This document shows, piece after piece, positions 1 through 14,846 of a stretch of DNA of 64,000 nucleotides (position 1 is its first letter; each line of letters opens with the position of its first letter). The stretch spans positions 1-64,000 of the forward strand of contig CP043652.1 in NCBI GenBank assembly GCA_014218215.1. The letters run 5' to 3'. Below the pieces are notes generated by a model that had not been told where the DNA came from, searched no databases, and was given only the letters and a program-made list of their open reading frames with translations. The position numbers were made by a program, and so were the translations under genes. This stretch comes from Geodermatophilaceae bacterium NBWT11. Lineage in GTDB: Bacteria; Actinomycetota; Actinomycetes; Mycobacteriales; Geodermatophilaceae.

Positions 1-891
1 ATGCACGCGTTCGGCTGGTCGTGGCTGGACGCCTGGGTGCGGGAGGGCCGGTTCCGGCCGGTGTTCCTGCCCGCCGGCGTGGTCACCGGGCGGTGGGCCA
101 GCCAGGGCGGGGGTGCGCTGAGCGCGCCGGTGCAGCTGCGGCCGGCTGCGGTCGCCGACGAGGGGTGGCGGTTCGTCGTCGCCGACGTCGCGCAGCTGGA
201 GCCCCGGGTGCTGGCCGGGATGAGCCGGGACGCCGCGATGGCCGAGGCGGCCCGGGCCCGCGACCTCTACCAGGGGATGGTCGACAGCGGCGCCGTCGAG
301 ACCCGGACCCAGGCCAAGCTGGGCATCCTCGGCGCGATGTACGGCGGCACCCGCGGCGAGTCCGGCGCGATGCTGCCCCGGCTGACCCGCCGCTACCCGG
401 CCGCCGTCGGGCTGGTCGAGCAGGCCGCCCGGGCCGGCGAGCGCGGCGAGGTGGTGTCGACGCTGCTGGGCCGCGGGTCGCCGCGGCCGGACCCGTGGTC
501 CCGCGGCGGCGCCGACGACCCGGCGGCCGGTCGGGCCGCCGACGCCCGGCGCCGGGCGTGGGGCCGGTTCACCCGCAACTTCGTCGTGCAGGGCACCGGT
601 GCGGAGTGGGCCTCGTGCTGGCTGGCCGACCTGCGCAACCGGCTGTGGCGCCTGGGCGACGGCGTGCTCACCGAGCGCCCGCACCTGGTCTTCTTCCTGC
701 ACGACGAGGTGGTCGTGCACACCCCGCGGGCGCTGGCCGACGAGGTGGCCGAGGCCGTCCGGGCCTCCGCCGTCGAGGCCGGGCGGCTGCTGTTCGGCAC
801 GTTCCCGGTGGACTTCCCGCTCGACGTGGCCGTCGTCCGCTCCTGGGCCGACGCGGACGCCCCACCCGACCTCGCGTCGGACGACGACTGA
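1..891 (+). CDS. Family A DNA polymerase (bifunctional 3'-5' exonuclease/polymerase type), C-terminal part
   Basis: This is the palm and fingers half of a DNA polymerase I-like enzyme; the open frame reaches base 1, so the N-terminal part lies outside the window. Motif A reads VADVAQLEPRVLAG (family DYSQIELRVLA), motif B is the R..K..ILGAMYGG stretch near residues 102-116, and motif C is FLHDEVV near 235-241. The first Asp and the His-Asp-Glu of the active site are kept, and Gln-Leu-Glu replaces Gln-Ile-Glu in motif A, which is tolerated. Actinobacterial proteins of this class are about 550-600 residues with an exonuclease-like N-terminus, so roughly half is missing here. The role is presumably auxiliary DNA synthesis. 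The gene ends 8 bp before the interrupted HNH gene, which runs the other way. Confidence 0.85.
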   Translation: MHAFGWSWLDAWVREGRFRPVFLPAGVVTGRWASQGGGALSAPVQLRPAAVADEGWRFVVADVAQLEPRVLAGMSRDAAMAEAARARDLYQGMVDSGAVETRTQAKLGILGAMYGGTRGESGAMLPRLTRRYPAAVGLVEQAARAGERGEVVSTLLGRGSPRPDPWSRGGADDPAAGRAADARRRAWGRFTRNFVVQGTGAEWASCWLADLRNRLWRLGDGVLTERPHLVFFLHDEVVVHTPRALADEVAEAVRASAVEAGRLLFGTFPVDFPLDVAVVRSWADADAPPDLASDDD

Positions 892-898
892 CCTCGCG

Positions 899-1258
899 TC
901 AGAACGGCGGCGGGTCGTCGTCCTGCCTCCGCGCCGTTGCGTCGTTCCGGCCGGCCGTGGCCAGGGCGGCGTCCAGCTCCGCCTCGATCTCGGCTGCCAG
1001 CCGGGCCCGCTCTGCCGCGGCGGCGCGGCGGTCGGCTCGTTCCTCCGGGGTGGGGCTCCGGTAGCACCGCGGCGTGCGGCCGAGGAGGTCCGTGACCACC
1101 TGCCGGGTGCAGGCCTCGGCGAGACAGCTGGGCCGGGTCGTGCGGGTGCGCCCGCCGGGTGGGGTGACGTGCAGGGTGCCGTCGGGGTCCATGCCGAACA
1201 CCCAGCCCGGCGCGTGGGTCTTGAGCCGGTGGTGCCGCCGGCACAGGCAGACCAGGTT
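899..1258 (-). pseudogene. 13E12/DUF222 HNH endonuclease, C-terminal fragment cut off by an integrated element
   Basis: This is the last 120 codons of the HNH gene whose first part lies at 6078-7487. The fragment holds the second half of the HNH motif (NLVCLCRRHHRLKTH) and the usual GW...D..G...V.PPGGRT tail. Joined to 6078 and upstream, the frame is continuous (470 + 120 codons, 589 residues) and reads T-N-L-V-C-L-C-R across the junction. It has no start of its own: an internal start at 1264 would add only two codons from the element. It is the natural 3' piece of a single disrupted gene. Confidence 0.9.
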
Positions 1259-1275
1259 GTTCACGTGTTCTTAGT
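1240..1275. other. Left attachment site (host HNH / element junction)
   Basis: Core CCAGGTT at 1252-1258. Bases to the left match the HNH coding sequence; bases to the right (GTTCACGTGTTC) belong to the element. The core together with the downstream TCACG is shared with the right end at the same spacing, separated by two mismatched bases, as expected for serine-integrase sites with limited identity. Confidence 0.8.
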
Positions 1276-1285
1276 ACGACTGCTC

Positions 1286-2683
1286 ATGACGACACCCAGG
1301 TCAGCCGCGGTCTACGCCCGGATCAGCAGCGACCAGGCCGGGGAAGGTCTTGGCGTGCAGCGCCAGGTCGAGGACTGCCTCAGGCTCGCGGAGGGTCTCG
1401 GCTGGACTGTGGGCGAGGAGTACGTGGACAACGACTTCTCCGCCTACTCCGGGAAGCCACGCCCGCGCTACCAGCAGATGCTCACCGACCTCGCCTCTGG
1501 CGACCGAGACGGTGTGCTGGTCTATCACCTGGACCGCCTGACCCGCCGGCCACGGGAGCTCGAGGAGTTCCTCGAAGTGATCGATGCGGCCAAGGTCCGG
1601 CACGTCAAGTTCGTCGCCGGCGACGCCGACCTCGGCTCAGGTGACGGACTGCTGGTAGCCCGGATCATGGGCGCTGTCGCGGCCGGTGAGAGCGCGGCCA
1701 AGAGCCGCCGAGTGAAGCGCAAGTTGATGCAGAACGCCGAGCTTGGCCTACCCCACGGCCGCTCGGTGCGCCCGTTCGGCTTCGAGCAGGATGCGATCAC
1801 GCACCGGCCCGATGAGGCTTCGGTGCTGCGCGAGCTGGCCCAGCGCTTCGTCGCCGGGGAGTCGCTGCGGTCCCTGTGTACGGACTTGGAAGAGCGTGGA
1901 GTCAAGACCGTGAAGGGCGCTCCCTGGCACACGCACAGCTTGCGCTACGTACTGTCCAACCCCCGCCTAGCCGGTCTGCGCTCCCACAACGGTCAGACGG
2001 TCGGCAAGGCTGTGTGGGAGCCGATCATCACCGAGGAGCTGCACCACCGGGTGTTGGCCCTCATCGCCTCACGCAAGATGTCTAGCCGACGCACCCCGCG
2101 CGCTTACCTGCTGTCGGGGATGCTCCGCTGCGGGAAGTGCGGTGGAACCCTCTTCTCTTCTCGCCGGCAGGACTCTCGCCGCTACGTCTGCCTGTCCGGC
2201 CCAGACCACAGAGGTTGCGGCGGGCTCACCGTGGTCGCGGCACCCTTGGAGCAGTTGATCACCGACTACGCACTGTTCCGGCTGGACAGCCCCGCCGTCG
2301 CCAATGCGATCGCTGGACGGAGCAGTGCCGATGAGGAGTCATCCCGGCTGGGCGAACAGCTCAGCCAGGAGCGGGAGCCGTTGGATTATCTCGCCGAGGA
2401 GTTCGGGGTCGCTCGAATCGACCGTCGCCATTGGGAGAAGGCCCGCCGACCGGTCGAAGGCCGTGTCAAAGACCTGGAGAAGCGACTGGGGAAGGTGACC
2501 CGGACCGACAGCCTCACGGGACTGGGCACCGGGGAGGCTCTGCGGGACCAGTGGGCCGGGCTCAACCTGTCCCGACAGTCGGCCATCCTTCGGACCCTGA
2601 TTGCCCACATCACGATCGCACCTGGGCAGCGGGGAGCCAGAGCCCTGGACCCCGACCGTGCGGAAGTGACCTGGCTCCTGTAG
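1286..2683 (+). CDS. int: Large serine recombinase (integrase of the element)
   Basis: A 465-residue site-specific recombinase expected to catalyse attP x attB integration and, with a directionality factor, excision. The N-terminal resolvase domain begins YARISSDQ, with Ser14 the likely nucleophile, followed by LDRLTRRPRELEEF. The recombinase domain holds LRYVLSNPRLAGLRSHNG, and a zinc ribbon (CGKCGG...YVC...GCGG) with a coiled-coil-rich C-terminus follows. The size is typical of large serine integrases. The start is the ATG only 28 bp inside the left end; there is no good ribosome-binding site in the host-derived sequence before it, so the native promoter probably lies at the other end of the element and joins the gene only in the circular form. 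No recombination directionality factor is recognisable in the element. Confidence 0.93.
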   Translation: MTTPRSAAVYARISSDQAGEGLGVQRQVEDCLRLAEGLGWTVGEEYVDNDFSAYSGKPRPRYQQMLTDLASGDRDGVLVYHLDRLTRRPRELEEFLEVIDAAKVRHVKFVAGDADLGSGDGLLVARIMGAVAAGESAAKSRRVKRKLMQNAELGLPHGRSVRPFGFEQDAITHRPDEASVLRELAQRFVAGESLRSLCTDLEERGVKTVKGAPWHTHSLRYVLSNPRLAGLRSHNGQTVGKAVWEPIITEELHHRVLALIASRKMSSRRTPRAYLLSGMLRCGKCGGTLFSSRRQDSRRYVCLSGPDHRGCGGLTVVAAPLEQLITDYALFRLDSPAVANAIAGRSSADEESSRLGEQLSQEREPLDYLAEEFGVARIDRRHWEKARRPVEGRVKDLEKRLGKVTRTDSLTGLGTGEALRDQWAGLNLSRQSAILRTLIAHITIAPGQRGARALDPDRAEVTWLL

Positions 2684-2702
2684 CTCCCCATCGCCGGCCG
2701 AT

Positions 2703-2724
2703 CGCTTCCCCCTGCGGGGGAGCG
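2703..2724. terminator. Hairpin between convergent int and rep
   Basis: CGCTTCCCCC / TGC / GGGGGAGCG forms a nine-pair stem with one bulged T between the stop codons of int (2683) and rep (2854). It is placed to act in both directions. The rest of 2684-2853 shows no gene. Confidence 0.5.
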
Positions 2725-2853
2725 CTCCCGGCCGCTCCGATGAGGACCCCAGCAGGACTACGACACGCGCCACCGCGGCCATGTCCTCGACGTGTAGCGG
2801 AACACCGGACCGGACGCACGACGCCGAGACCCGAACGGCCAACTCCTGCGGGC

Positions 2854-3594
2854 TCACGACCACGCCGCCCACACCGAGGGCGGCCCCTCCCATCCCAACG
2901 TCTCATCTGAGGTCCACAGGTCGGCCGGCTCACCCCCCATGAGCGCGACGGCCTGGGCGAGCACGTCGTCCAAGCTGCGGCCATGCAGACGAAGCGTCTC
3001 CGGTTGGAAGCCCTGCGCCACCTCATAACGGTGCAGCCCCGGGATGCGGCGAACGTCGAAGGCCTTGTGCACGTACTTGGACAGGTAGCGCGCTGCGACT
3101 CGTGCCTCATCTCGAGGCGTCGACCCGGCCGACAGCTGACCGAGCAGCTTGATGTGGACGAAGCCGTGACCCCAGGCCCGTTCGATCAGCGAGCGCGGCA
3201 CGAACCGGCCCACAGCGAAGTGCACGTGCTGCCCATGGTCGGTCTTGTGCCACTCCGGCACCCACACGTAAGGGAGCGGCTCACCGCCTAGCAGCTCACG
3301 CAGGGACCGGAAGAACTCGGCAACGTCGCGGCGCAACTGCATCGGATCGTGACAACCCGCACCCCGGTAAGTCAGGGTGCCCAGTCGGTTGAGCCGGTTG
3401 TGAGCGCAGTAGCGACGGACCATCCGGGCGGCACGTCGAGCGGCTTCCTTGCGGGACCGGTCAGGATCCCCGCCGCCGGCATACCGTTGCACCGGTACCG
3501 AGCAGCGGAACGAGCCGCCGACCTCACCAGCACCGGGGTAGAGCGTGACGAACCAGCCCGCGGGACTGGACACAGACAGCGGTGGGGCAACCAC
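2854..3594 (-). CDS. rep: HUH-endonuclease replication initiator (rolling-circle Rep)
   Basis: A 246-residue protein with the ordered Rep motifs: motif 1 LGTLTYRG (residues 71-78), motif 2 GQHVHFAV with the His-hydrophobic-His pair at 123 and 125, and motif 3 ARYLSKYV with catalytic Tyr170 and Lys173. This order and the single Tyr fit rolling-circle initiators of plasmids and phages, which nick an origin and covalently attach to the 5' end. The GTG start at 3594 is chosen because GGAGG lies five bases upstream; a TTG at 3612 is a poorer option. It presumably acts on the inverted-repeat block just upstream. A cysteine-histidine-rich region around residues 63-82 may bind metal or DNA. It suggests that the element replicates after excision. 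Confidence 0.82.
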   Translation of the reverse strand: MVAPPLSVSSPAGWFVTLYPGAGEVGGSFRCSVPVQRYAGGGDPDRSRKEAARRAARMVRRYCAHNRLNRLGTLTYRGAGCHDPMQLRRDVAEFFRSLRELLGGEPLPYVWVPEWHKTDHGQHVHFAVGRFVPRSLIERAWGHGFVHIKLLGQLSAGSTPRDEARVAARYLSKYVHKAFDVRRIPGLHRYEVAQGFQPETLRLHGRSLDDVLAQAVALMGGEPADLWTSDETLGWEGPPSVWAAWS

Positions 3595-3895
3595 GAGAGC
3601 CTCCGAGGGCAACCGATCAGCATGTGATCGGCCTCGGCGCCTACGCCCTCGGAACTGTGTGCTGCTCCAGCATCAGCAGCCTGCTGCCCACGCAACGCCT
3701 ATGACGACGGGGGTCCGCGGAGATTGAGTCCTTACCCCGGAACGTGAGAGCGTGGGCTACACGAACCGCTGACCGCGAACAGGCAGAAGCCTCGCCCGAC
3801 GCCAGGTCGACTGTCAAGAACCCCAGTGGATGACAGACAGGGAATGTCGCGGCGCCGCCGTCCTCCCACGGCGCAGTCTTCGGTCCGTCCTCCGC

Positions 3896-3934
3896 CGGTC
3901 AAGGGTCCGCTTCGCCGCTTCGCGCCCTTGACCG
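3896..3934. repeat. Inverted repeat 1 of the putative origin
   Basis: Perfect 10-bp arms CGGTCAAGGG (3896-3905) and CCCTTGACCG (3925-3934) around a 19-base loop that carries CGCTTCGC-like repeats. A long loop with a perfect stem is more like an origin or protein-binding structure than a simple terminator. Confidence 0.6.
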
Positions 3935-3970
3935 ACTCCCCCCAGACCTACATCGGCACCTATGAGGACA

Positions 3971-4001
3971 ACGCCTCCGTGTGGTCCCCCCACGGAGGCG
4001 T
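3971..4001. repeat. Inverted repeat 2 of the putative origin
   Basis: Perfect 11-bp arms ACGCCTCCGTG (3971-3981) and CACGGAGGCGT (3991-4001) with loop TGGTCCCCC. No T-run follows on either strand. Confidence 0.6.
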
Positions 4002-4049
4002 CAACTGCGCCGGACCAGGACCCCGAGTTACGTTGCTACTTCAAGTAAA

Positions 4050-4070
4050 GGCGCGGGCTTCGCCCGCGCC
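4050..4070. terminator. Inverted repeat 3, terminator-like hairpin below the cargo operon
   Basis: Perfect 9-bp arms GGCGCGGGC / GCCCGCGCC with triloop TTC, 60 bp beyond the stop codon of the HExxH gene. Reading in the direction of the cargo (minus strand), it is followed by CTTTACTTGAAGTAG, so it could end cargo transcription before it enters rep. It may equally be part of the origin. Confidence 0.45.
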
Positions 4071-4130
4071 GTCCCGCGACAAGTGGGACGATGGCGGCGC
4101 CAGGCGGCAGCTGCGCCCACCCTCTAGGAC

Positions 4131-4601
4131 TCATGCGCCGCCTGCATCCAATTCCTCTTTGTGCATGTGCAGGCGTAGAGCGGCGTCCCTCATCAAGTCC
4201 CTGATGTCGGAGTCCGGCAACTCCTTAGGGAAGCGCAGCGCAGCCTCTAGGCTCGTCAGAGCCTCGTCGAGGTGGCGGTGAACCCCCAACGGAAACTCGC
4301 TCTGGTTCTGCCAACGATGGAAATGCGAAATTTCGTGCGCGACCGCCGCCTGCATCGACAGAGCAGAATTGGCATTCGCCACCCCCGACCCAGGATATAT
4401 GTCGGCACCGAAGTAGACGATGCCCACCTCTTCTTCGTCTTCCTCCTCGACCAGAAAGCGAGTAGGGCCATCTGGGTCATGCTTGAAGGGCACGGAATTG
4501 TCAAGGCCCACAAAGGTTGCGCTCACTTGGCGGACCCTTGCCTCCGTGAGCGGTACTTGAGAGCGCCCGCCAAGTAGCGAGCCCTCGGCTCGATCGCCCA
4601 C
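4131..4601 (-). CDS. Small HExxH zincin-like protein, second cargo gene
   Basis: A 156-residue protein not assigned to a named family. Residues 86-97 read AAVAHEISHFHRW, a textbook HExxH zinc site (His89, Glu90, His93); Glu113 in LDEALTSLEA, 20 residues further on, is placed as a gluzincin third ligand. An acidic patch (EEEDEEE, 52-58) precedes a predicted strand VGIVYFGADI. No signal peptide or membrane segment is visible, so it acts in the cytoplasm. Its GTG start shares one base with the stop of the upstream gene (TAGTG), so the two are translationally coupled and probably work together. It could be a protease or a dead zinc-binding partner; the substrate is unknown. Base composition is unlike the host. 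Confidence 0.7.
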   Translation of the reverse strand: MGDRAEGSLLGGRSQVPLTEARVRQVSATFVGLDNSVPFKHDPDGPTRFLVEEEDEEEVGIVYFGADIYPGSGVANANSALSMQAAVAHEISHFHRWQNQSEFPLGVHRHLDEALTSLEAALRFPKELPDSDIRDLMRDAALRLHMHKEELDAGGA

Positions 4602-5863
4602 TAGTCCGCCAGTCCGACGGGACGCGGATCCTCATCATTGAGATACCGCCTTAGGGCCCGCCCGGCGCGAGCCCGCGCCCCGCCGGTATTGGTGACCGTG
4701 AGCGCGTGTGTGTCCGGATTCTCTTTGGTGATCCCAAGCTGAAGCCACAGAGGATTCCGCTTGCTCAAGAAGTCGCCCGTCCAGTCATCCTGGCCATAAA
4801 GCTGCTCAGGACTGAGCTTGCTTAGTCGATCTCTCCAAACCTGTCGTGCCCGTGTCGGGCCACGATTCGCAAGGTCGAGACTGTAGTCACGCATGAGTGC
4901 GGCGTAGCCGTGCATCATGACCGCAGCGGACGCCAGCGTATTTTCCCGATCACGTTGTGGAGTCTCGACTCTCAGCTCTCGCCTAACAACGGCGAGCATC
5001 TCTAAAAACTCGGCTGCGATCACCGCCAAGCCCTCAAGCTCGCTCTCCTCCATCTCGGAGGCGCCAGCGAACGTACGCATCAGTTCGCGAAGAGTTGAAA
5101 GGGTGAGGAAGTGTGGGGCCTTCTTGCTAAGCCGGTCAGTGGCCCGGTTCACCCCAGCGTCGAGCGCCGGGGAGCGCTCAAGTACTCGCTTGGCTAGCGT
5201 TGAAAGATCATCTTCAGTGGTGAGGTCGTACGCCTTCGACAGGGCGGTCGGCTTCGGCCGCTGATTCTTGTCGAAGAAGTAATTCCCTTCGTCTTCCTTG
5301 TCCAGAAAGTAGAGTTCCACCTTGAACTGCCGCCCGAGCTGAAAGCTCGGATAGCTTCCAGGGGAGTCGCGGTAGGCGCGCACCGCCTTGAGCAGGGCCT
5401 GGTGACGGTGATGTGAGTCCGGCAGAAAGATCTTGCCGGCGTACAAATAGAGTTCTCCGTCAGAGTCAGACCAGTAGGCCTCGAATGTGCCTGGCCGGAG
5501 GTTCCATACGAGCGGGTTGAGGAATAGACGATCGCTGTTCAGCAGCTTTGTGGTCATGTCATCTGCATTGGCAGCGTCAAAGATATAGAAGCGACTGTCC
5601 GGGTACCCGTCTGACAACGCGAGCTCGCGCGGCGTGTTCGCTGGTGCGGTCGGGTTGATACCTCGCTGCACCGACTGATCGGTCCAAAGCAGTCGACTCT
5701 CCGCCGCGTCTGCAAGCTCTTCCATGGTGAGGGTCGCCGTCACGAATGCGTCGGCATCGGTACCCGTCCATTGAACGCTCGATAGTGCTAAGCGCCCGCG
5801 ATACACGCTTCCATTCGCACTCCTTCTCGGGGCATCTGCGAAACCCTTGATTTTGACGTGCAC
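4601..5863 (-). CDS. DGQHR-domain (DndB-like) protein, first cargo gene
   Basis: A 420-residue protein whose layout matches the DGQHR/DndB superfamily, known from DNA phosphorothioation loci and many defence islands. PDSHHRHQAL at 148-157 sits where the family has DGQHR, with Asp149, His152 and Arg153 kept and Gly-Gln replaced by Ser-His. FFDKNQRPKPTALSKAYD near 196-213 matches the F.D.N...K family motif, and LTLSTLRELM (253-262) follows. The C-terminal third is helical and ends in a basic stretch. No dndACDE, dptFGH or pbe genes are nearby, so this is an orphan paired only with the HExxH protein. The start is a GTG after GGGGAGAA. The family assignment is by eye and moderately sure; a role in defence is inference from family and location. 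Confidence 0.65.
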   Translation of the reverse strand: MHVKIKGFADAPRRSANGSVYRGRLALSSVQWTGTDADAFVTATLTMEELADAAESRLLWTDQSVQRGINPTAPANTPRELALSDGYPDSRFYIFDAANADDMTTKLLNSDRLFLNPLVWNLRPGTFEAYWSDSDGELYLYAGKIFLPDSHHRHQALLKAVRAYRDSPGSYPSFQLGRQFKVELYFLDKEDEGNYFFDKNQRPKPTALSKAYDLTTEDDLSTLAKRVLERSPALDAGVNRATDRLSKKAPHFLTLSTLRELMRTFAGASEMEESELEGLAVIAAEFLEMLAVVRRELRVETPQRDRENTLASAAVMMHGYAALMRDYSLDLANRGPTRARQVWRDRLSKLSPEQLYGQDDWTGDFLSKRNPLWLQLGITKENPDTHALTVTNTGGARARAGRALRRYLNDEDPRPVGLAD

Positions 5864-6070
5864 TTCTCCCCTTCAGCGGTCGACCGTTCGATGTGCCAGA
5901 ATTGGCAGTGCTAGACCTTTCGTGCGGGGCTTACGTCCCACGCTTCCTCGCCTCGGCGTTTGCGCTACAGAACCAGTCTTTCACTGGGACCGGCATAACG
6001 ACGATGCCAAGGGCTTGGGAGTACGCGTGTCGCAGGGCGTCGTTCATGTGGGGGGTGTCTTGGTGACTTG
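5864..6070. promoter_or_regulatory. Right-end region of the element, probable promoter of the cargo operon
   Basis: The region between the cargo start and the right core must hold the leftward promoter of the DGQHR gene. In the circular form its rightward strand would also lie directly upstream of int. I see no clear -35/-10 pair. The plus-strand end of this stretch also encodes the out-of-place tail of the truncated HNH frame (down to 5931 on the minus strand). Confidence 0.35.
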
Positions 6071-7487
6071 CCAGGTTCGTCACGCACGTGGGGCCGCCGG
6101 CGGTGGGGTCGTCGTGATCGCGTGGGACGACGTGGTCGAGGTCGGTGTACTCGGCCGGTCGGGCACAGCCGGGGAACCGGCAGTGCCGGTCCCGGGCCTG
6201 CACGAAGCGGACCTGAGCGGCGCTGGGTTCGTACCCGTCGACCGCCGGTGGTGGCCCGAGTCCCCTACCGCGGCGGAGAGCGGCACGGGCCTCGGCCGAT
6301 GAGCTGATCGCGCGGAGCCTGCCGGAGCTGTCGACGACCTCGAACCACACGGCACCCCCACCGGTCGGGCTCGCGGGCGCGAGGGCGTCGAACCGGGCCA
6401 GCAGTTCTGCCACCGCGGCGGGGCCGACCGACAGCCTCCCGACCGCGCCGACCCCCGTGCCCGGGCCGGAGACGGCGTCCTCGCCCTGGTCCGTCATCGG
6501 GCCGCAGTCGTCCAGGTCGGCCAGGTCCACCCGCAGTCGCAGGTCCCAGCACGTCCGAGCCACCTCCTCGGGCAGCGTCTCCCACGGCCGGGTCAGCAGT
6601 TGCTTCAGCGCCTCCACCCGCAGCTGCCCGATCGGCCGGTGGTCACCGCCCCTGCGCATCACCGCGGCCAGGGCATCGACCACGCCCTGCATCGCTGCTG
6701 CATCCGCTGCGTCGAGCAGGTCCGCCCGGAGCCCCGCCAGTCCGTCACCGGCACCGACGGTGGTCACGTTCTGCTTCCGCCTACGACGCTCGGCTCGCCT
6801 GTCCGCCTCGGCCGGGTCGGCGGCGATGAGCGCTCCACCCACCCGGTCCGCCAGCGGGGTGGGCCCCACGCCCTCACCGATCCAGGCCAGCCCCTGCGCT
6901 GCCACCGCGTCCACGACGTCGTCGGGGAGTCCGCCCCCGGCGGACTGCTTCCGGTGCGCCAGGGCGTCGACGAGGACCTGACAGCGGCGGACGTCGATCT
7001 CCCCGTCCGCCAGTGCTCCCCACACCCGCGGCAGCTCCTCCACCAACACCCGCTGCTTGTCCACCAGCACCGAGGCGGACCCGATCCCGATGCCCAGCAC
7101 CACGGCGACCTCGTCGGCCACCCAGTCGTCCGGACGGTCGGGATCGGCCGGGTCGTCGGCCCGGGCACCGGGCAAGGACTGCTGCGCGGGCTGCAGCTCC
7201 GCCAGCCGGGAGATCGCGGCCGCCTGGAGGGCGTGCAGCTGGGCCTGGGCATCGGCGACGTCCCGCAGCACGGCGTGCACGCCGGCCCGGTCGGTGTCCT
7301 CGGTGACCAGGAGCTCCGCCAGCCGCGTGGGCCGGGAGGTGGCATCCGGGGGCAGCAGCCCGGCCGACACCTGCGCGATCCGCTCGGCCTCCTCCACCGC
7401 CGCCTGCGCCGCAGCCGAGGCGAACACCTCGACCCGGGCGATGCTGAGCGAGACGCCGAACCGGGTCCTCGCGACCAATCGAGCCAC
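5931..7487 (-). pseudogene. 13E12/DUF222 HNH endonuclease, N-terminal part, 3' end replaced by element sequence
   Basis: From the GTG at 7487 (AGGAGG eight bases upstream) the frame encodes the DUF222 domain and the start of the HNH motif, CRFPGC...YTDLDHVVPRDHDDPTAGGP (split here; residues up to about 470). At 6077 it crosses into the element and runs through 49 foreign codons to a stop at 5931. The truncated product lacks the RRHH half of the nuclease site, so it should be inactive. The other half is at 899-1258. Proteins of this 13E12 repeat family are multicopy in actinobacteria, and the M. tuberculosis prophage phiRv1 also uses a serine integrase to enter a 13E12 repeat, so the family is a recurring attachment site. 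Confidence 0.88.
6060..6090. other. Right attachment site (element / host HNH junction)
   Basis: Core CCAGGTT at 6071-6077, followed by CGTCACGCACGTGG, which on the minus strand codes for the HNH residues P-T-C-V-T. The element side reads GTGACTTG before the core. The reconstructed attP, GTGACTTG-core-GTTCAC, is an imperfect dyad (outer GTGA/TCAC and inner CC/GG), as is usual for serine-integrase sites. Confidence 0.8.
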
Positions 7488-7640
7488 GCTCGTCGCCTCC
7501 TGGAATGCTCGAACACCTGTACGAAGAGCACTGGACAGCGGGCGTGCGGGCAAGACAAAAGCGCAGCTCAGGGCGCTGAGATGTACCTTTGACGAGGCGT
7601 CGCGCAGGACGACCCAGTGGCACGCCCCTAGGATCCGCGG

Positions 7641-8825
7641 GTGCCCTCCGACCGGGTCCAGCAGCTGGTGGACGCCCTCGCCGAGCAGCTGCAGCGCTCC
7701 GTCGTGGTGGACGACCCCGACGTGCGGCTCCTGGCCACCAGCAGGCACTTCGGCGACGAGGACGACGTGCGGGTGCGCGCGGTCCTGCAGCGCGACGCGG
7801 GCAGTGCCGCGGTCGCGCACGTGCTGGGGGCCGGCGTGCGCACCTGGCCGCAACCGGCCTGGATCCCGGCCGAGCCGGCGATCGGCATGCACCCGCGCTG
7901 GTGCGTCCCGCTGCGGTGGCGCGGCGAGCTGCTCGGCCTGCTGATGGTCATCGACGCCGACGCCCGGCTGACCGTCGACGAGGTCGCGCTGATCGGCGCC
8001 GCCTCGGGCGAGGTCGCCGCCGTCCTGGTCGGTGACCGGCACGCCGCCGACGCCGCGACCGCCGCCCGGGACGCCGACGTGGCCGCGCTGCTGTCCCGGG
8101 TGGCCGAGGAGCGCACGCGGGGCCTCGCAGCGCTGGCCGGCACCGCCGGGACCCAGGTGCGGGCGGTGGTGCTCGCACTCCGCGACGTCGGGCCCGACGA
8201 CGGCGAGCACGCCCGGGCCGCCGTCCGCCGGGGTCTGGACGCGCTCGGCACCCGGGGCGGCACGGTGCTCGCCACCGTCACCGACGCCGGCGGCACCGGC
8301 CTGCTGGTCACCGCCGGCCCCACCGACGACGCCACCGTCGCGGGGCTCGCCGCTGCCGCGGTCGGGACCGTGGCCGAGGTCGCTGCCGGCCGGTTCACCT
8401 GCGTCGCGGGCACCGGCCCCGCGGTGGTCGGGCTCGACCGGGGCTGGGTGTCGCACCGGACGGCCGAGCTGGCGACCCGCGCCGTCCCCCGGCTGCAGCC
8501 CGGCCCGGTCGTCGACGGCACCGCCCTCGGAGTGCACGCCGTGCTCCTGCGGGTGCCCCCGGAGGACTGGGACGAGACCGCCCTGCCGGCCGAGCTCACC
8601 GCGCTGCGCGCCGGGGACCCGCAGGGCCGGCTCACCGCGACGCTGGCCGCCTGGCTGGACGCCGGCGGCAACGCCCCGGCCGCCGCCGACGCCCTGCACG
8701 TGCACCGCACGACCCTGCACTACCGGCTGGACCGGGTCCGCGAGCTCACCGGCGCCGACCTGGACGACGGCGCCACCCGGCTGCGCCTGCACCTGGGGCT
8801 GGCCGTCGCGGAGCTGCTCGGCTGA
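7641..8825 (+). CDS. PucR/CdaR-type transcriptional regulator
   Basis: A 394-residue regulator. The N-terminal half is GAF-like (residues 1-130, ending VALIGAASGEVAAVLVGD), the middle resembles the GGDEF-like sensor of the PucR family, and the C-terminus is the HTH_30 domain (AAWLDAGGNAPAAADALHVHRTTLHYRLDRV..., about 335-394). Such proteins control purine, sugar-diacid or aromatic catabolism. The GTG at 7641 has no clear Shine-Dalgarno sequence, so the mRNA may be leaderless. It is divergent from the broken HNH gene and lies just upstream of the hydrolase/SDR pair, which it may control. Confidence 0.8.
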   Translation: MPSDRVQQLVDALAEQLQRSVVVDDPDVRLLATSRHFGDEDDVRVRAVLQRDAGSAAVAHVLGAGVRTWPQPAWIPAEPAIGMHPRWCVPLRWRGELLGLLMVIDADARLTVDEVALIGAASGEVAAVLVGDRHAADAATAARDADVAALLSRVAEERTRGLAALAGTAGTQVRAVVLALRDVGPDDGEHARAAVRRGLDALGTRGGTVLATVTDAGGTGLLVTAGPTDDATVAGLAAAAVGTVAEVAAGRFTCVAGTGPAVVGLDRGWVSHRTAELATRAVPRLQPGPVVDGTALGVHAVLLRVPPEDWDETALPAELTALRAGDPQGRLTATLAAWLDAGGNAPAAADALHVHRTTLHYRLDRVRELTGADLDDGATRLRLHLGLAVAELLG

Positions 8826-8942
8826 CCTCCGACGCAGCGAGCAACCGGCCCGCCGGCTCTGCTCGCTGCGGCCGTGGTGGCCCGCGTCACACATCACCGA
8901 TGATCACCCGGTGGGTCGACGGCGACCCGGCAGGAGGCCCCG

Positions 8943-9800
8943 ATGAGCACGTTCACCACCACCGACGGCACCGACCTCGACGTCCGGGACACCGGCCCCA
9001 CGGACAGCGGCCGGACGCTGGTCCTGATGCACGGCTGGTCGCAGTCGCAGTCCACCTTCGACCGCGTCGTCCCCACCCTCGCCGCCCAGCACCGGGTGGT
9101 CACCTACGACCACCGCGGGCACGGCCGGTCCGGCAAGCCCGACCACGGCGCCCGGGTGGCCCGGCTGGCCGCCGACCTCGCCGAGCTGGTCGCGCACCTG
9201 GGGCTGACCTCCTACGACCTGGTCGGGCACTCGATGGGCGCCTCGGTCGCCTGGAGCCACATCGACACCCACGGCACCGGCGCCCTGGACTCCCTCGTGG
9301 TGATCGACCAGCCCAGCGCCTGCGTGGTGCTGCCCTGGATGACCCCGGAGGAGGGCGCCGCGGCCGGCGCGATCCTGGACTTCCCGAGCACCGAGGGCTT
9401 CGTCGGCGCGGTCGGCGCCGCCGACGCCACCGAGACCCGCCGGGCGTTCCTGGCCTCGATGCTGTCCGACGTGCTGCCCGAGGAGGACATGGCGTTCCTG
9501 TTCGGGGAGAACCTGCAGATGCCCGGACCGTGGGGTGCCCGGTTGCTGCTGGACCACGCCATGCAGGACTGGCGCGACGTGCTGCCGCGCATCGACGTCC
9601 CGACGCTCGTGGTGGCCGGAGAGGTCAGCCACGTGGCCCCGGCGTCGCAGCAGTGGACCGCCGAGCACGTCCCGGGTGCGCAGCTGCGCACGTTCAGCGC
9701 CGACGAGGGCGGGTCGCACTTCCCGTTCTACGAGGGACCGGAGCACTTCGCCCGGGTGCTGCTGGACTTCCTCGCGGGCACGCCCGGCCCCCGTGGCTGA
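8943..9800 (+). CDS. Alpha/beta-hydrolase
   Basis: A 285-residue soluble hydrolase of the alpha/beta fold. The oxyanion motif is HGW (residues 30-32), the nucleophile elbow is GHSMGAS with Ser97, and the likely catalytic His is in GGSHFPFYEGP near the C-terminus. The ATG follows AGGAGG at good spacing. Its stop overlaps the start of the SDR gene by 8 bp, so the two form an operon and may act on the same substrate, for example ester or lactone cleavage plus alcohol/ketone conversion. The substrate cannot be read from the sequence. Confidence 0.88.
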   Translation: MSTFTTTDGTDLDVRDTGPTDSGRTLVLMHGWSQSQSTFDRVVPTLAAQHRVVTYDHRGHGRSGKPDHGARVARLAADLAELVAHLGLTSYDLVGHSMGASVAWSHIDTHGTGALDSLVVIDQPSACVVLPWMTPEEGAAAGAILDFPSTEGFVGAVGAADATETRRAFLASMLSDVLPEEDMAFLFGENLQMPGPWGARLLLDHAMQDWRDVLPRIDVPTLVVAGEVSHVAPASQQWTAEHVPGAQLRTFSADEGGSHFPFYEGPEHFARVLLDFLAGTPGPRG

Positions 9801-10596
9801 CCCCCGGCTGGCCAGGAAGGTCGCGATCGTCTTCGGCGGTGGGCTGAACACCGGCGGTCCGGACGGCGTCACCAGCATCGGCGCGGCCACCGCCACCACG
9901 TTCGCCCGGCACGGCGCGCAGGTCGTCGTCGTCGACCGGGACGAGGCGGCCGCCCAGCGCACCGTCGACGCCGTCCGGACCGAGGGCGGGACGGCGCTGG
10001 CCCTCGTCGCCGACGTCACCGACGCCGACCAGGTGCAGGACGCCGTCGCCGCGGTCATCGACGAGTTCGGGCAGCTGGACGTCGTCCAGAACACCGTGGG
10101 CGCGACCCGGCTCGGCGGGGTGGACGAGCTGACCCTGGACGACTGGCACCGCACCCTCGCGTTGAACCTGGACAGCGTCTTCCTGTCCGCGCAGGCGACG
10201 CTGCCGCACCTGCTCGACCGCGGCGGGTCGATCGTCAACGTGTCCTCGACGGCGTCGATCCGCTGGACCGGCTACCCCTACCCCAGCTACGCGGCGGCGA
10301 AGGCCGGGGTGAACCAGCTGACCCGCAGCCTGGCCCTGCAGCACGCCGACCGCGGGGTCCGGGTCAACGCCGTGCTGGCGGGGCTGATCGACACCCCGCT
10401 GGTCTACCAACAGCTGGCCGGGGGCTCCTCGGTCGCGGAGATCCGCGCCGAGCGGGACGCACACAGCCCGACCGGGCGGATGGGCACCGCCCAGGACGTC
10501 GCCGACGCCGCGCTGTTCCTGGCTTCGGACGAGTCCCGCTACGTCACCGGCGTGCTCCTGCCGGTGGACGGCGGGCTGTCGGTGCGGGCGGTCTGA
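9793..10596 (+). CDS. Short-chain dehydrogenase/reductase
   Basis: A 267-residue classical SDR. The nucleotide-binding loop is unusual: instead of TGxxxGIG it reads GGGLNTGGPDGVTSIG (about 15-30), a longer insertion between the glycines. The rest is standard: DVT (about 75-77), NLDSVFL, catalytic Ser in NVSSTAS, YAAAK with Tyr and Lys four apart, and the C-terminal PVDGG. The GTG start lies inside the 3' end of the hydrolase gene. It uses NAD(P)H; the substrate is unknown. Confidence 0.85.
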   Translation: MADPRLARKVAIVFGGGLNTGGPDGVTSIGAATATTFARHGAQVVVVDRDEAAAQRTVDAVRTEGGTALALVADVTDADQVQDAVAAVIDEFGQLDVVQNTVGATRLGGVDELTLDDWHRTLALNLDSVFLSAQATLPHLLDRGGSIVNVSSTASIRWTGYPYPSYAAAKAGVNQLTRSLALQHADRGVRVNAVLAGLIDTPLVYQQLAGGSSVAEIRAERDAHSPTGRMGTAQDVADAALFLASDESRYVTGVLLPVDGGLSVRAV

Positions 10597-10618
10597 GGCT
10601 CGACACCAGGGTGGGCCG

Positions 10619-10665
10619 TGGTGTGGGGGGTCGAGCCGCGGTAGACCGCGGACCACCCCACACCA
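10619..10665. terminator. Two-tier hairpin between convergent genes
   Basis: Outer arms TGGTGTGGGG (10619-10628) and CCCCACACCA (10656-10665), with inner arms CCGCGG / CCGCGG around TAGA. It lies between the SDR stop and the gamma-glutamylcyclotransferase-like stop, so it probably serves both. Confidence 0.55.
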
Positions 10666-10672
10666 GGGCGGC

Positions 10673-11263
10673 TCAGGGTGCCGGGACGAGGAGGGCGGCG
10701 ACGTCGGCGCGGGCCCACGTCGAGGCAACCGCGAGGTGGTCGACCACCGCGGCCGCCGGCCAGCCGGCCTCGACCAGCCCGGCGGCCAGCACGCGCAGGT
10801 AGGCCGCGGACGGCGGGGCGGGGGGCGGCGGTTCCGGGCAGGTCAGCGTGAGCACGGGGACGCCGTCCCGGTCCCCGAGCCGCACCACCGTCTCGTACCG
10901 GCCGGGGCCCAGGTGGTGCCGCCCGACCGGGACCGCGTCGAGGGCGACGGTCCCGGGCTCGGCGTGCATCTCCTGCGCGGCGACGTCGGCGAACTGCCCG
11001 GCCGTGACCAACCAGGCCCGGGCCGGCGCGGTGCCCGGCGCGACGTCGTCCAGGAAGGCCATCCCGCCGCCCCACACCGTCGACGTCCCGCCGAAGACCA
11101 GCCGGCCCGGCACCCGCAGCGCCGTCGAGGCCCGCGGCGGGGCGGTGTCCCGGCAACCCGGGTACGTGCGCGCTCCGCCGGCGGGCCGACCGCCGCGCAG
11201 GTAGCAGTCGAACCGGGAGGCGAGGGTGTTCGAGCCGTAGGCGGCGTACCAGACCGGCGTCAC
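10673..11263 (-). CDS. Gamma-glutamylcyclotransferase-like protein
   Basis: A 196-residue protein beginning WYAAYGSNTLASRF; the YGSN loop near the N-terminus is the hallmark of the GGCT/AIG2 fold, which forms 5-oxoproline from gamma-glutamyl compounds. A WGGGMAFLD segment follows. The catalytic Glu is not obvious, so the reaction is unproven. The GTG start overlaps the upstream VOC gene's stop (GTGA), indicating coupled translation. The C-terminal third is Ala/Val-rich and helical. Confidence 0.65.
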   Translation of the reverse strand: MTPVWYAAYGSNTLASRFDCYLRGGRPAGGARTYPGCRDTAPPRASTALRVPGRLVFGGTSTVWGGGMAFLDDVAPGTAPARAWLVTAGQFADVAAQEMHAEPGTVALDAVPVGRHHLGPGRYETVVRLGDRDGVPVLTLTCPEPPPPAPPSAAYLRVLAAGLVEAGWPAAAVVDHLAVASTWARADVAALLVPAP

Positions 11264-11652
11264 CGCTGGTCGCGGCGCAGCGGGTGGTCGGCCGGGATCT
11301 CCACCAGAACCACCGGGACGCCGTCGGGGTCTGCCAGCCAGCACTCGACCAGGCCCCACGGCTCCTGCACCGGGGCGCGGGTGACCACCCCCAGCGGGGC
11401 CAGCCGCTCGTGCTCGGCGCGCACGTCGCGGACCTGCAGCCACAGCGCCAGCCCGGTGGGCGGGGTGGCCGAGGAGCCGGAGACCTCCAGCAGTCCCCCG
11501 CCGCCGGTCAGGTAGACCACGCCCCGGTGCCCGGGCGGGCCGAACTCGCGGTACACCGCCAGGCCCAGCACGTCGCGGTAGAACCCGTGCGACCGCGCGG
11601 GATCGGTCGGGCGCAGCAGCAGCCGGCTGGTGAGGACCTCCACGACGGCCAT
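11260..11652 (-). CDS. VOC/glyoxalase-family protein
   Basis: A 130-residue single VOC domain with the paired beta-alpha-beta modules: SRLLLRPTDPARSHGFYRDVLGL at the start, HRGVVYLTGGGGLLEVSG in the middle and WGLVECWLADPDGVPVVLVE at the end. Members include dioxygenases, glyoxalases and resistance proteins; the metal ligands (Glu/His positions) are only partly clear. Two ATGs (11655, 11652) are possible. The start overlaps head-to-head with the divergent DUF1349 gene. It is coupled by GTGA to the GGCT-like gene downstream. Confidence 0.75.
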   Translation of the reverse strand: MAVVEVLTSRLLLRPTDPARSHGFYRDVLGLAVYREFGPPGHRGVVYLTGGGGLLEVSGSSATPPTGLALWLQVRDVRAEHERLAPLGVVTRAPVQEPWGLVECWLADPDGVPVVLVEIPADHPLRRDQR

Positions 11653-11653
11653 C

Positions 11654-12244
11654 ATGGCCCGTGTGATCGACCCCGACCTCCTCGCCGCAGCCGCCTGGAC
11701 CACCCCGCCCGCAGCCACCGAGCACACCGACGACGGGCTGCGGGTGACCGCCGTCGAGGGCAGCGACGCCTGGCGGCACACCTCCTACGGCTTCGTGCAC
11801 GACGACGCGCACGCCCTGCTCGCCCCCTTCGGCGCCCGGGACGCCCTCGAGGTGGCGTTCCGGCTCGACTACACCGAGCAGTTCGACCAGGCCGGGCTCG
11901 TGCTGCGCGCCGGGCCCGAGGAGTGGGTGAAGGCCGGGGTCGAGGTGTCCGACGGCGTGCCGCAGGTGGGCGCCGTGGTCACCCACGGCACCTCGGACTG
12001 GTCGGTCTCCCCGGTGCCGGACTGGGCGGGTCGGACGGTCACCGTGCGGGCCAGCCGGGACGGCGACGCGGTCACGCTGCGGGCCCGGGTGGACGACGAG
12101 CCGTTCCAGCTGGTCCGGGTCGCCCACGTCGACCCCGGGCTGGAGCTGCGGGCCGGCCCGTACTGCTGCGCCCCCACGCGCGCCGGGCTGACCGTGCTGG
12201 TCACCGGCTGGCGGCGGTGCGCCCCGGACGACGCCCTGCACTGA
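11654..12244 (+). CDS. DUF1349 family protein
   Basis: A 196-residue protein of the DUF1349 family (jelly-roll, concanavalin-like fold, related to yeast Ygr066c-type proteins), recognised by the YTEQFDQAGLVLRAGPEEWVKAG core and DWSVSPVPDW. The function is unknown. The ATG at 11654 overlaps the divergent VOC start codon; a GTG at 11663 (VIDPDLL) is a plausible alternative and would remove the overlap. The stop lies 1 bp from the stop of the ABC permease on the other strand. Confidence 0.75.
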   Translation: MARVIDPDLLAAAAWTTPPAATEHTDDGLRVTAVEGSDAWRHTSYGFVHDDAHALLAPFGARDALEVAFRLDYTEQFDQAGLVLRAGPEEWVKAGVEVSDGVPQVGAVVTHGTSDWSVSPVPDWAGRTVTVRASRDGDAVTLRARVDDEPFQLVRVAHVDPGLELRAGPYCCAPTRAGLTVLVTGWRRCAPDDALH

Positions 12245-12245
12245 C

Positions 12246-14846
12246 TCACCCCTCGCGGAGCACCTCGGCCAGCGTCACCCGTCGGCGGGCCCGTGCCTCA
12301 CCCACCACGAGCGCCACCACGGCCAGCACCGGGGGGACGACGAGGGCGAGCACCGTCCAGGGCACGACGAGGGCCGGGTCGGCATCCTGACCGGTGACCA
12401 GCCGCAGCCCCAGCGGGCCGGTGACCAGGGCGGTCACCAGGGCCCCGAGCGCCACGCCGGGGACGACGGTGGCCAGCACCCCGGGCAACAGCTCCAGCAG
12501 CGAGACCGCCCGGGCCTGCCGCTCCCCCAGCCCCAGGGTGCGCAGCACGCCGGAGGTGGACCGTCGTCGGCGGACCCCCGCGCTGCCGGACAGCAGCACC
12601 ACCACCACGGTCAGCGCGAGCAGCACCCCGGCGACGCCGAGGACGAGACCGGCGAGCCCACGGGTCAGCGGGGCCTGCTGCACCTCGGCCAGCCGGTCGG
12701 CGCGCAGCACGACGTCGGCCCCGGGCGCGGCCGCGGCGACCTCGGCGGCAGCCTGCGCCGCGCCCGGCCCGGTCAGCCAGAGCGTGTTGGGCACCGCGAG
12801 GTCGGCGGGCACCGCGGCCGAGGACAGCAGGACCGTCGTCGGCCCGGCCGGGAGGTTGCCGACGACGGTGAACGACACCGACGTCCCGTCCTGCAGCACC
12901 GAGCCGGTCGCCCCGGTGAGGTCGGGGGTGACCAGGGCCAGCACGGTGTCCCCCGCCAGGTCGCCCAGGCCCTCGACGTCGGGCAACGGCGTGCTGTCGA
13001 CGAGCTCGCCGTAGGCGGCGGGGTCGACGACCACGAGCCGGGTGCGGTCGCTGCCCGACGGGGTGGACAGCTGCACGCCCTCGGTGACCCGGGCCGGCAC
13101 GGCGAGCCCGGCACCGGCGACGGGGAGCTCGGGGAGCGAGCCGGCGGTGACCGTGGCGTCGGCTCCGACGGCGGTCCAGGAGGCCTCGACCTGACCGGCC
13201 GACGCCGTCGCGCCCAGCGCCAGCACGACGGTGACCAGCGCGGTGACGGCGGTCAGCGCGAGGGGTCCCAGGACCGCGGTGGACCGGGCACCGGCCGCGG
13301 CCAGCAGCGGCACCGCTCCGCGCGAGCGCACCGCGCCCCGCAGCAGCAGCCCGGCGACCGCGGGCTGCACCCGGGCCACGAGCACCGACCCGGCGAGCAC
13401 GGCCACCGCGGGCGCGGCGACGGTCAGTGCCCCGCCGGACAGCCCGCGGGCCCGCAGCGCGGCGACGGCGCCGACGGCCAGCAGCACCAGGGCCCCGTCG
13501 ACGGCCACCCGGCGGAGCAGCCGCTCGCGGTGCGCCCGGGTCCGGCCGCGGCGGTCCAGCGGCACCCGGCGTCCTCCGGTGGCGAGGTCGGCGGCCCGGA
13601 CGCCGAGCACCGGCAGGGCCAGCAGCCCGGCCAGCGCGACCGGCACCACCCCGGCCAGGGCCGCCCCGACCGGCACCGGACCGGGTGCGAGCAGGGTGCC
13701 GACCAGGAGGCCGAGCCCCAGGCCGAGCGCGGTGAGCACGGCCGACTCGGCCAGGAGTGCGACCCCCGGCCCGGGCAGCGACCCGCCGCGGGCCCGGGTG
13801 CCGGCGAGCACGCCGGCCCGGCGGGAGACGAGCACGGTGGCGCCGAGCAGCAGCACCAGGGCGGTCGCCAGCCCCACCGCGGTGACCAGCACGGCGGCCT
13901 GGGCGCGGGCGGCGGCCAGCCGGTCGGTGGCCGCCAGGAGCACCGCGTCGAGTCGGCTGTCCACGCGGGGCACCGGCGAGATGCCCAGCACCACGGGGGC
14001 GGCGCGCAGCGCGGTGACGGCGGCCGCGACCCGCTCGGCGCCGTCGGCTGCGACCCCGGCCGGGCGGGCGGCCAGCGTGAGGGTGCGGATCAGGTCGCCC
14101 TCGCCGACCGCCAGCCGGGCGTCGGGCAGCGACGTGTCCGACAGCAACGCGGCCACGTCGGTCTGCCGGGCCCCGCCCGCACCCCGGGTGCTGGGCGCGA
14201 GCAGGTCCGGCGTCGTCGTCCAGGCCCGGTCGTCCGGGTCCGCGGCGGCGAAGACCCCGGTGACCAGCACGTCGACCAGCGACCCGTTCGGCGCCCGCCC
14301 GGCCAACCGGTCGCCCACCCCGACGCCGAGGGCCGCCGCGACCGGGGCGGAGAGCCCGGCCTGCACCTCCTCGCCCGCTGCGGCCGCGGGGGCCGTGCCC
14401 GCGGTCCAGGTCGGTGCGGGGTCGGCGAGCCAGTCCAGCCGCAGCGTCGTCGGGCCCAGTGCCACGGCGACCGGGGCCGGCAGTTCCAGCGTGAGCTGCC
14501 GGGTGCGCACGGTCGCCACCGGGGCGGCCACCGCGGCGGCGAGCCCGGCCGGCAGGGCGCCGGGCACGTCGGCGGCCAGGGCCCGGGTCTCGGCGGCGGA
14601 GTCGTCCTGCCGGGCGGTCGGGGACTCCAGGTCGGCGGTGAACGGGACGGTGAGGACGGTGTCGGCCGCCGTGCCCGCGTCCACGACCGCGCTGCGGACG
14701 GCGTCGTCGGCGGTGGCCGCGACCGCCGACGGCACGAGGACCGCCAGCACCGCGGCCAGCGCGAGGACGACGACCGACAGCAGCCACGGCCCCGGCGCCG
14801 CGGCGACCCGGGCCCGGGTGCCCACCCACGGGACACCCCACCTCAC
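12246..14846 (-). CDS. FtsX-like ABC transporter permease (second permease)
   Basis: An 866-residue membrane protein with an N-terminal membrane segment (about 17-37), a large extracytoplasmic domain, several central segments (AAVLVTAVGLATALVLLLGA and after), a second periplasmic domain, and the last FtsX block near the C-terminus (RTLGLGERQARAVSLLELLPG). The two-FtsX layout with large soluble domains is that of MacB/LolC-type mechanotransmission exporters. It is the last of four coupled genes; its GTG overlaps the previous stop as GTGA. The substrate (lipid, lipoprotein or peptide) is unknown. Confidence 0.85.
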   Translation of the reverse strand: MRWGVPWVGTRARVAAAPGPWLLSVVVLALAAVLAVLVPSAVAATADDAVRSAVVDAGTAADTVLTVPFTADLESPTARQDDSAAETRALAADVPGALPAGLAAAVAAPVATVRTRQLTLELPAPVAVALGPTTLRLDWLADPAPTWTAGTAPAAAAGEEVQAGLSAPVAAALGVGVGDRLAGRAPNGSLVDVLVTGVFAAADPDDRAWTTTPDLLAPSTRGAGGARQTDVAALLSDTSLPDARLAVGEGDLIRTLTLAARPAGVAADGAERVAAAVTALRAAPVVLGISPVPRVDSRLDAVLLAATDRLAAARAQAAVLVTAVGLATALVLLLGATVLVSRRAGVLAGTRARGGSLPGPGVALLAESAVLTALGLGLGLLVGTLLAPGPVPVGAALAGVVPVALAGLLALPVLGVRAADLATGGRRVPLDRRGRTRAHRERLLRRVAVDGALVLLAVGAVAALRARGLSGGALTVAAPAVAVLAGSVLVARVQPAVAGLLLRGAVRSRGAVPLLAAAGARSTAVLGPLALTAVTALVTVVLALGATASAGQVEASWTAVGADATVTAGSLPELPVAGAGLAVPARVTEGVQLSTPSGSDRTRLVVVDPAAYGELVDSTPLPDVEGLGDLAGDTVLALVTPDLTGATGSVLQDGTSVSFTVVGNLPAGPTTVLLSSAAVPADLAVPNTLWLTGPGAAQAAAEVAAAAPGADVVLRADRLAEVQQAPLTRGLAGLVLGVAGVLLALTVVVVLLSGSAGVRRRRSTSGVLRTLGLGERQARAVSLLELLPGVLATVVPGVALGALVTALVTGPLGLRLVTGQDADPALVVPWTVLALVVPPVLAVVALVVGEARARRRVTLAEVLREG

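Follow-up and report, generated by a model that had tools for sequence, protein, structure and literature searches.

The role of DndB-like proteins in bacteria has been argued over, and they have been presented as repressor, nucleotide destroyer, nuclease, or switch (PMC10853773, PMC12704722). In particular, DndB has been proposed to limit nucleotides or to act as a nuclease (PMC10853773), and a DndB-like protein binds both ATP and GTP (PMC12704722). In mycobacteria, a DGQHR protein appears together with a DpnIIA methylase and two resolvases among clade-associated genes (PMC9248903). Here, we describe a gene pair at positions 4131-5863 of a 64,000-nucleotide stretch of Geodermatophilaceae bacterium NBWT11 (contig CP043652.1, positions 1 to 64,000; the whole stretch is referred to as the window), in which the gene for a 420-amino-acid (aa) protein of the DndB/DGQHR superfamily is coupled to the gene for a 156-aa HExxH protein within a small mobile element. 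An earlier note on this DNA had proposed the pair as a candidate undescribed defence module.

In its superfamily (PF14072) and in the position of its nucleoside triphosphate (NTP) box, the 420-aa protein resembles DndB of the dnd operons; DndB carries DGQHR, whereas the pair's protein carries DSHHR and is partnered by the HExxH protein. There is also a likeness to DpdB, the DGQHR-domain protein of 7-deazaguanine DNA modification. Two plasmid relatives (24-26% identity; L053 and L054) of the Sinorhizobium meliloti copy described below, examined through annotation tables, lie near genes annotated tgt or dpdA, and no dpd gene was recognised by eye in the open reading frames (ORFs) beside the pairs, for which no profile search was made. 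As an identity for the 420-aa protein, DpdB was rejected on its scores and neighbours. In SspE/GmrSD (DUF262, DGQQR), the ParB-like NTP box is likewise a switch that licenses an effector; in SspE, the nuclease is licensed by GTP hydrolysis, for which the R of DGQQR is required (PMC13251355). These factors carry their effector, an HNH nuclease, as a fused domain, whereas the pair has a separate HExxH protein instead.

On the protease side, the pair shows a likeness to Lit, a zincin-type anti-phage protease that resides on a mobile element, a defective prophage, and cleaves EF-Tu on T4 infection (PMC3506569). No Pfam match links the HExxH protein to Lit. We know of no NTPase partner of Lit. The XRE-ImmA/IrrE (M78) systems of mobile elements also pair a regulatory protein with a small HExxH peptidase; the regulator there is a helix-turn-helix repressor, whereas the pair has a DndB-like protein, and its HExxH protein has no M78 match. 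The pairing of a DndB-type protein with a metallopeptidase is not described among the matches listed from the open-licence literature, nor in the available portions of PMC4619093, PMC12839542, PMC5786514, and PMC4507180, which agrees with the view of the pair as undescribed. As a clade found away from phosphorothioation genes and, at every locus found, together with one small unclassified HExxH protein, these proteins offer a minimal two-protein system for testing the role of the DGQHR-type box.

Conservation of the Gene Pair

Both genes are adjacent and in the same order at all eight loci found, the window included, which represent three phyla as taken from organism names; the HExxH partner is intact at seven of them and split at one. 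Six of the further loci came from a pattern scan in which a single genome stood for each species of bacteria and archaea, namely those of Agromyces (69%), a Rhodoglobus metagenome-assembled genome (MAG; 66%), two Bradyrhizobium (57 and 56%), an Actinomycetes MAG (56%), and a Dehalococcoidia MAG (57%), and one more, on psymA of S. meliloti (57%), came from a plasmid collection. By ORF coordinates, the two genes overlap by 1-8 bases at five loci and lie 1-4 bases apart at three, the junction of the Actinomycetes MAG (L005) being computed with a chosen start codon. In the window, base 4601 is common to both genes within a TAGTG junction, and their GC contents are 0.593 and 0.603, compared to 0.744 for the whole window. 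The earlier note had coordinates, strand, junction, and AT-richness right, and its expectation that the two genes would be found together beyond this element survived the test that it had set for itself, since all eight loci, spread over three phyla and over different mobile elements, have both. In a search for orphans among 265 Bradyrhizobium genomes, the HExxH protein was found in two, both of which also have the large gene.

The two proteins have diverged in step. In a mirror-tree comparison over seven loci, their pairwise distances correlate with r=0.905, and only one of 5040 relabellings, the observed one, gave a value as high. This correlated divergence shows that the two genes have travelled and diverged as a unit, which is not in itself proof of contact. 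Third codon positions hold 0.61-0.68 of the differences, compared to 0.18-0.41 at positions 1 and 2, in nine of nine pairwise comparisons, a sign of constraint at the protein level. The pairing is not due to chance because seven relatives in other genomes keep both genes adjacent and because this third-position bias is found in every comparison.

Two loci depart slightly from the common layout. The HExxH gene of Bradyrhizobium manausense is in two pieces, such that its first ~35 positions remain and the rest lies on another contig; the same ORF, transposase-like by eye, is seen at both contig ends (L026:9852-10871 and L025:2040-3554). For the Actinomycetes MAG, the genome search flagged one TAG within the HExxH match, and the ORF ends at 156 aa; the profile probably runs beyond the natural stop.

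The 420-aa Protein

The 420-aa protein matches the DndB profile of Pfam (PF14072) over profile positions 45-320 of 338 with 48.2 bits, above the cut-off of 29.1, and on this sequence match it is assigned to the DndB/DGQHR superfamily. Other profiles give lower scores: TIGR03187 (DGQHR) reaches 30.3 bits (E 3.4e-7), under its cut-off of 58.85, and the DndB profile of PADLOC gives a weak match (19.7 bits, E 8.7e-5). The DndB equivalog TIGR03233 stops at 25.4 bits, far under its cut-off of 328, and this score and the neighbouring genes speak against DndB proper. Within the whole source genome there is a single PF14072 match. No dnd gene was noticed by eye among the ORFs of window positions 1-14000, where profiles for dndC/D/E were not run, nor were these genes searched for genome-wide; within that range, the gene does stand without dnd/pbe partners, as had been claimed. 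Neither a DUF262 nor an HNH match was obtained at E <= 1 in Pfam, which lists DndB only.

The most conserved features lie in two blocks, LPDSHHRHQA at residues 147-156, which includes the DSHHR pentapeptide at 149-153, and FFDKNQRPKPTA at residues 196-207. R153 of DSHHR is unchanged across the aligned relatives. All eight large proteins associated with the pair have DSHHR and not DGQHR, whereas of ten other DndB-type proteins nine, those whose motif can be recognised, have DGQHR or DGQQR, and the tenth, L051, has DSQSR. In a maximum-likelihood tree of 18 sequences, in which long branches make the deeper joins unsafe, the eight pair members form a single clade (96/99). The assignment to DGQHR proteins in the earlier note holds at the level of the family, and does not hold for the pentapeptide.

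An AlphaFold2 model built from a seven-row alignment has a mean predicted local distance difference test score (pLDDT) of 83.0 and a predicted template modelling score (pTM) of 0.52. Compared by Foldseek with the PDB, the model ranks Caulobacter ParB first (E 0.012, probability 0.92) and CDP-bound ParB second (E 0.08, probability 0.51), and SspE appears at ranks 5 and 8 with insignificant values (E 1.1 and 1.5). The structural check asked for in the earlier note lends weak support to a ParB-like fold in this model, none of the matches reaching E <= 0.001. A sequence-profile search of the PDB returned unrelated proteins only, the best being a TFIID subunit (E 0.0066).

Among 296 genomes of the phylum, PF14072 is present in six, the source genome included. 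When ORFs of 60 aa or more were listed greedily for six stretches from the other five genomes, none was an HExxH ORF; such a list can hide small genes, and on L019 it omitted the DndB gene itself. One genome of the window's phylum (G031; L021, L022) has three DndB-type proteins in ~22 kb, two with DGQQR and one with DGQHR. The distant DndB-type protein with DSQSR (L051:4689-5816), encoded in an Agromyces-family genome, lies near a methylase-like ORF, and no HExxH ORF was seen in that stretch.

The 156-aa Protein

The HExxH motif ascribed to the small protein is indeed present, as HEISH at residues 89-93, and E113, within DEALTS, is a candidate third zinc ligand. An HExxH followed by a downstream Glu ligand is the signature of gluzincins, and thermolysin combines a 20-residue spacing between HExxH and Glu with an NExxxD-type motif. 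In all eight HExxH proteins, one of them partial, the Glu of DEA(L/M)T lies exactly 20 residues past the second His; judged by motif, the family has the gluzincin (clan MA(E)) signature in eight of eight members. H89, E90, H93, D112, E113, and A114 are invariant in the seven full-length members. The S. meliloti member reads HELSH...DEALTD, and the other seven of the eight have S at the final D (position 117).

No family reached its cut-off for the 156-aa protein in Pfam, NCBIfam, PADLOC, or PHROGs, and the window protein has no match at E <= 1 in the latter three. When six HExxH members were searched, NCBIfam gave no match at E <= 10, and three Pfam families each matched one member with E 0.075-0.12. 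DUF2268 (PF10026) matched one of the six, the window protein, with 13 bits (cut-off 23.6) over the HExxH stretch only, and Peptidase_M78 (PF06114) matched none at E <= 10 as far as the HMMER filters allow. The best PDB match by sequence has E 0.39. In a profile-profile comparison, the HExxH family aligned with M78 at 7.3% and with DUF2268 at 9.9% probability, in each case only near HExxH itself, in a test of low power by which M78 and DUF2268 do not recognise each other either (5.6%); in building the M78 profile, three of 14 loci (L056, L059, and L061) were dropped because no HExxH ORF was picked. An identity with M78 or DUF2268 was set aside, as neither reached its cut-off and the profile comparison is of little power. 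Because the family stays under all curated cut-offs of these libraries, there is scope for further novelty.

Proposed Function and Alternative Explanations

The pair is real and conserved, each of its components falls within, or is similar to, a known superfamily, and a sensor-effector logic is itself known. At a little short of an even chance, we tentatively favour a small conflict module that spreads horizontally and is most likely directed against phages; in it, an NTP-gated switch would control a proteolytic effector. An anti-phage function is suggested because the pair is mobile and because defence-type genes lie near it at four loci (L009, L001, L005, and L025/L052). The sequences themselves show the conserved pairing, the coupled layout, the correlated divergence, the invariant motif residues, the constraint on the proteins, and the carriage by different mobile elements; for such a module we would infer complex formation, NTP switching, proteolysis, a trigger, a target, and defence. 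Holding or sensing would fall to the 420-aa protein as a nucleotide-binding switch of the ParB/DndB type, and the effector would be the 156-aa protein, a cytosolic, gluzincin-like zinc peptidase. Translated from a single coupled message, the two proteins may form a complex in resting cells in which the peptidase is inactive. An infection cue, for example a shift in NTP level or the presence of altered or foreign DNA, would alter the nucleotide state of the DSHHR box, the altered state would release or activate the peptidase, and the active peptidase could cut a host or phage protein, whereupon phage growth would stop. A zincin as a defence effector has a precedent, since Lit acts in this way on EF-Tu (PMC3506569). 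The bolder claim, that a ParB/DndB-type switch directly gates a stand-alone zinc protease in a two-protein immune system with a new effector family, is one that we regard as possible and doubtful. If the pair defends, a superfamily known chiefly from work on repression and on the licensing of nucleases would gain a branch with a protease as effector, and a new zincin-like family would be added as well.

Several observations weigh against this proposal. The pair is very rare: a survey at E <= 1e-20 found a close relative in one of 396 genomes of the phylum, and another survey in one of 397 of the order of one Bradyrhizobium locus (L004), the seed itself in each case, and in the family of Agromyces two of 299 were found, the seed and a distant protein with E 1.3e-15, which leaves one of 299 as close relatives; these surveys scored the best few candidates per genome, and the true frequency may be higher. 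Among 60 relatives, the large protein is present in the seed only (1/60) and absent from the rest, including the eight further genomes of the genus, of which one is 73% complete. Neither protein has a match in 50,697 phage records or among the viral contigs that were scanned with alignments, which fits host defence and is silent on function; a phage origin of the pair was rejected on the same searches. The defence-type neighbours at four loci, coming from chosen ORFs, are suggestive and do not amount to an enrichment. None is clear at L002 and L004, where the scanned neighbours are mobile-element or helicase genes, and the stretch L006 is too short. The PADLOC matches of the RecD-like helicase at L004 are read as generic helicase similarity, and the NB-ARC protein and two further neighbours in Agromyces have no PADLOC match. 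In the model of the 420-aa protein the pTM is modest, residues 199-209 of the second conserved block fall below 50 pLDDT, and the best Foldseek matches stay above E 0.001, while the zinc site of the HExxH protein is predicted from its sequence.

The likeliest alternative, though we consider it unlikely, is a regulator with its own protease. ImmR-ImmA of mobile elements offers a parallel. The peptidase would cleave an NTP-dependent, DNA-binding DSHHR regulator or effector and thereby switch the module or the element. Proteins that pair one to one and diverge in step could well be an enzyme and its substrate, and DndB has been described as an ATP-dependent repressor (PMC12704722; PMC10853773). 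However, none of six HExxH members matches the ImmA family Peptidase_M78 in the search reported above, and an inverted-repeat operator was not found in positions 5864-6075 upstream of the pair. Moreover, the elements differ in both integrase and Rep, so the pair is not tied to the switch of one element.

Less likely again is an addiction (toxin-antitoxin) pair that would stabilise small integrative elements, with the peptidase as toxin, the DSHHR protein as antitoxin, and no phage role. The overlapping or nearly touching genes, and the presence of the pair on two unrelated small elements, would be expected of such a pair. Antitoxins are usually smaller than 420 aa, which makes this protein large for the role, and the copies of S. 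meliloti, Agromyces, B. manausense, and the Actinomycetes MAG lie near defence-type genes. Addiction and defence are not exclusive of each other.

It is improbable, though in keeping with the missing family assignment and the lack of a meaningful match by sequence to a solved structure, that the HExxH protein is no peptidase and serves as an inactive zincin-like scaffold, or as a different metal enzyme, partnered with the switch. Gluzincins carry D where seven of the eight members have S at position 117, and the comparison with M78 and DUF2268 profiles aligned the HExxH surroundings only, a comparison whose low power has been noted. The invariance of the six residues from H89 to A114 in the full-length members is what would be expected of a retained active site, and the spacing of the Glu is constant in every member.

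Least probable of all is a ParB-like replication or partition helper for the plasmid phase of the element itself, since, although the ParB-like hits at weak E and the Rep genes on both the window and L002 elements would suit it, no Rep was seen among the chosen ORFs beside the pair in L001, L005, and L009 (a scan that was not exhaustive), the two Reps differ in their best Pfam match (PF23343 in the window, PF20199 RepSA in L002), and we know of no protease as a partition partner. That two such unlike chassis carry the same pair speaks for cargo rather than for a component of one element's replication.

Mobile Elements and Neighbouring Genes

The element of the window spans ~4.8 kb (1252-6077) inside a DUF222-HNH gene and has a GC content of 0.644, against 0.744 for the window. 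Its features are listed in Table 1.

Table 1. Coordinates of the gene pair, the mobile element, and the interrupted host gene in the window.
Feature	Coordinates	Strand	Evidence
DndB/DGQHR-superfamily protein, 420 aa, GTG start	4601..5863	-	PF14072, E 1.1e-12
HExxH protein, 156 aa, GTG start	4131..4601	-	HEISH motif; no family at or above cut-off
Terminator-like hairpin, ~60 bases past the HExxH gene stop	4050..4070	-	
AACCTGG core repeat (7 bp), one element end	1252..1258		
AACCTGG core repeat (7 bp), other element end	6071..6077		
Large serine integrase (Resolvase + Recombinase + zinc ribbon)	1286..2683	+	Pfam matches
HUH rolling-circle-type Rep (REP_ORF2-G2P)	2854..3612	-	PF23343, E 4.3e-15; phrog_3419, E 6.1e-19
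Hairpin between Rep and pair, 10-nt perfect arms	3896-3905/3925-3934		
Hairpin between Rep and pair, 14-nt arms	3971-3984/3988-4001		
5' part of interrupted host DUF222-HNH gene (open frame)	6078..7613	-	PF02720, E 5.4e-10 on 5934-7613
3' part of same DUF222-HNH gene	899..1251	-	Alignment to relatives; no Pfam match alone

Between the repeats, the pair is, as the earlier note had stated, the only cargo, its companions being the serine integrase and the HUH Rep, with the interrupted DUF222-HNH gene lying outside; the pair has no defence-type neighbour within the window element. In five of six stretches from relatives in the genus (L040, L041, L042, L044, and L045), the two halves of the host gene match adjoining segments that overlap by 7-16 bases, the sole one in which they do not being L043, and an uninterrupted insertion site is displayed for L040, L041, and L042. 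These empty sites may be paralogous because DUF222-HNH genes are multicopy in each genome. The strong hairpins at 3896-4001 could, as a guess, mark the replication origin of the element. The hairpin past the HExxH gene is consistent with a two-gene operon; by itself it is weak evidence, as the stretch has three terminator-like sites against 1.8 expected. No sigma-70-like promoter was found in 2650-6120 and no Rfam match in 1000-8000, and comparison of three loci revealed no obvious conserved block upstream of the pair.

In the Rhodoglobus MAG, the pair lies in an element of ~5.1 kb (L002:6504-11698), between a RepSA-type Rep and a tyrosine integrase. The ends of this element are 49-base direct repeats (6504-6552 and 11650-11698) that are 98% identical, the second copy lying in tRNA-Phe. 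Small minus-strand ORFs are present between the pair and the integrase.

Neighbouring genes at the other loci were chosen by eye, 19 of them being scanned against Pfam and 10 against PADLOC; the HExxH protein of S. meliloti, included in the Pfam scan, has no match there. On psymA of S. meliloti T073 (L009:17394-20844), FRG, HerA (963 bits), and SIR2 (666 bits) proteins are encoded 5.6-9.1 kb downstream; HerA and SIR2 are near full-length PADLOC matches, and three tyrosine recombinases lie between them and the pair. The feature table of this plasmid holds a single feature for the entire record. In B. manausense (L025/L052), an ORF of the N6-methylase type lies near the pair (MTase_II, 162 bits). 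In the Actinomycetes MAG (L005), an AbiTii protein (PF18864, 32.7 bits, cut-off 27.6) is encoded nearby, with its stop 21 bases before the longest ORF of the first gene, and an IS3-type transposase is also near. At the Bradyrhizobium locus L004, one neighbour shows a weak integrase match (E 0.0021), below the cut-off, and the RecD-like helicase matches several PADLOC candidate profiles, the best being PDC-S68 with 129 bits. In Agromyces (L001), a DUF4062 protein (PDC-S60, 74.7 bits) is encoded ~250 bases downstream of the pair, and the NB-ARC protein is also near. At the same locus, a like protein start, MPDxFNEAGSxSFxEFLSRYLA, Clp-like by eye, is encoded at two places ~5 kb apart, one truncated (L001:9830-10033) and one intact (L001:14844-17206), as if this had been the insertion site of an element.

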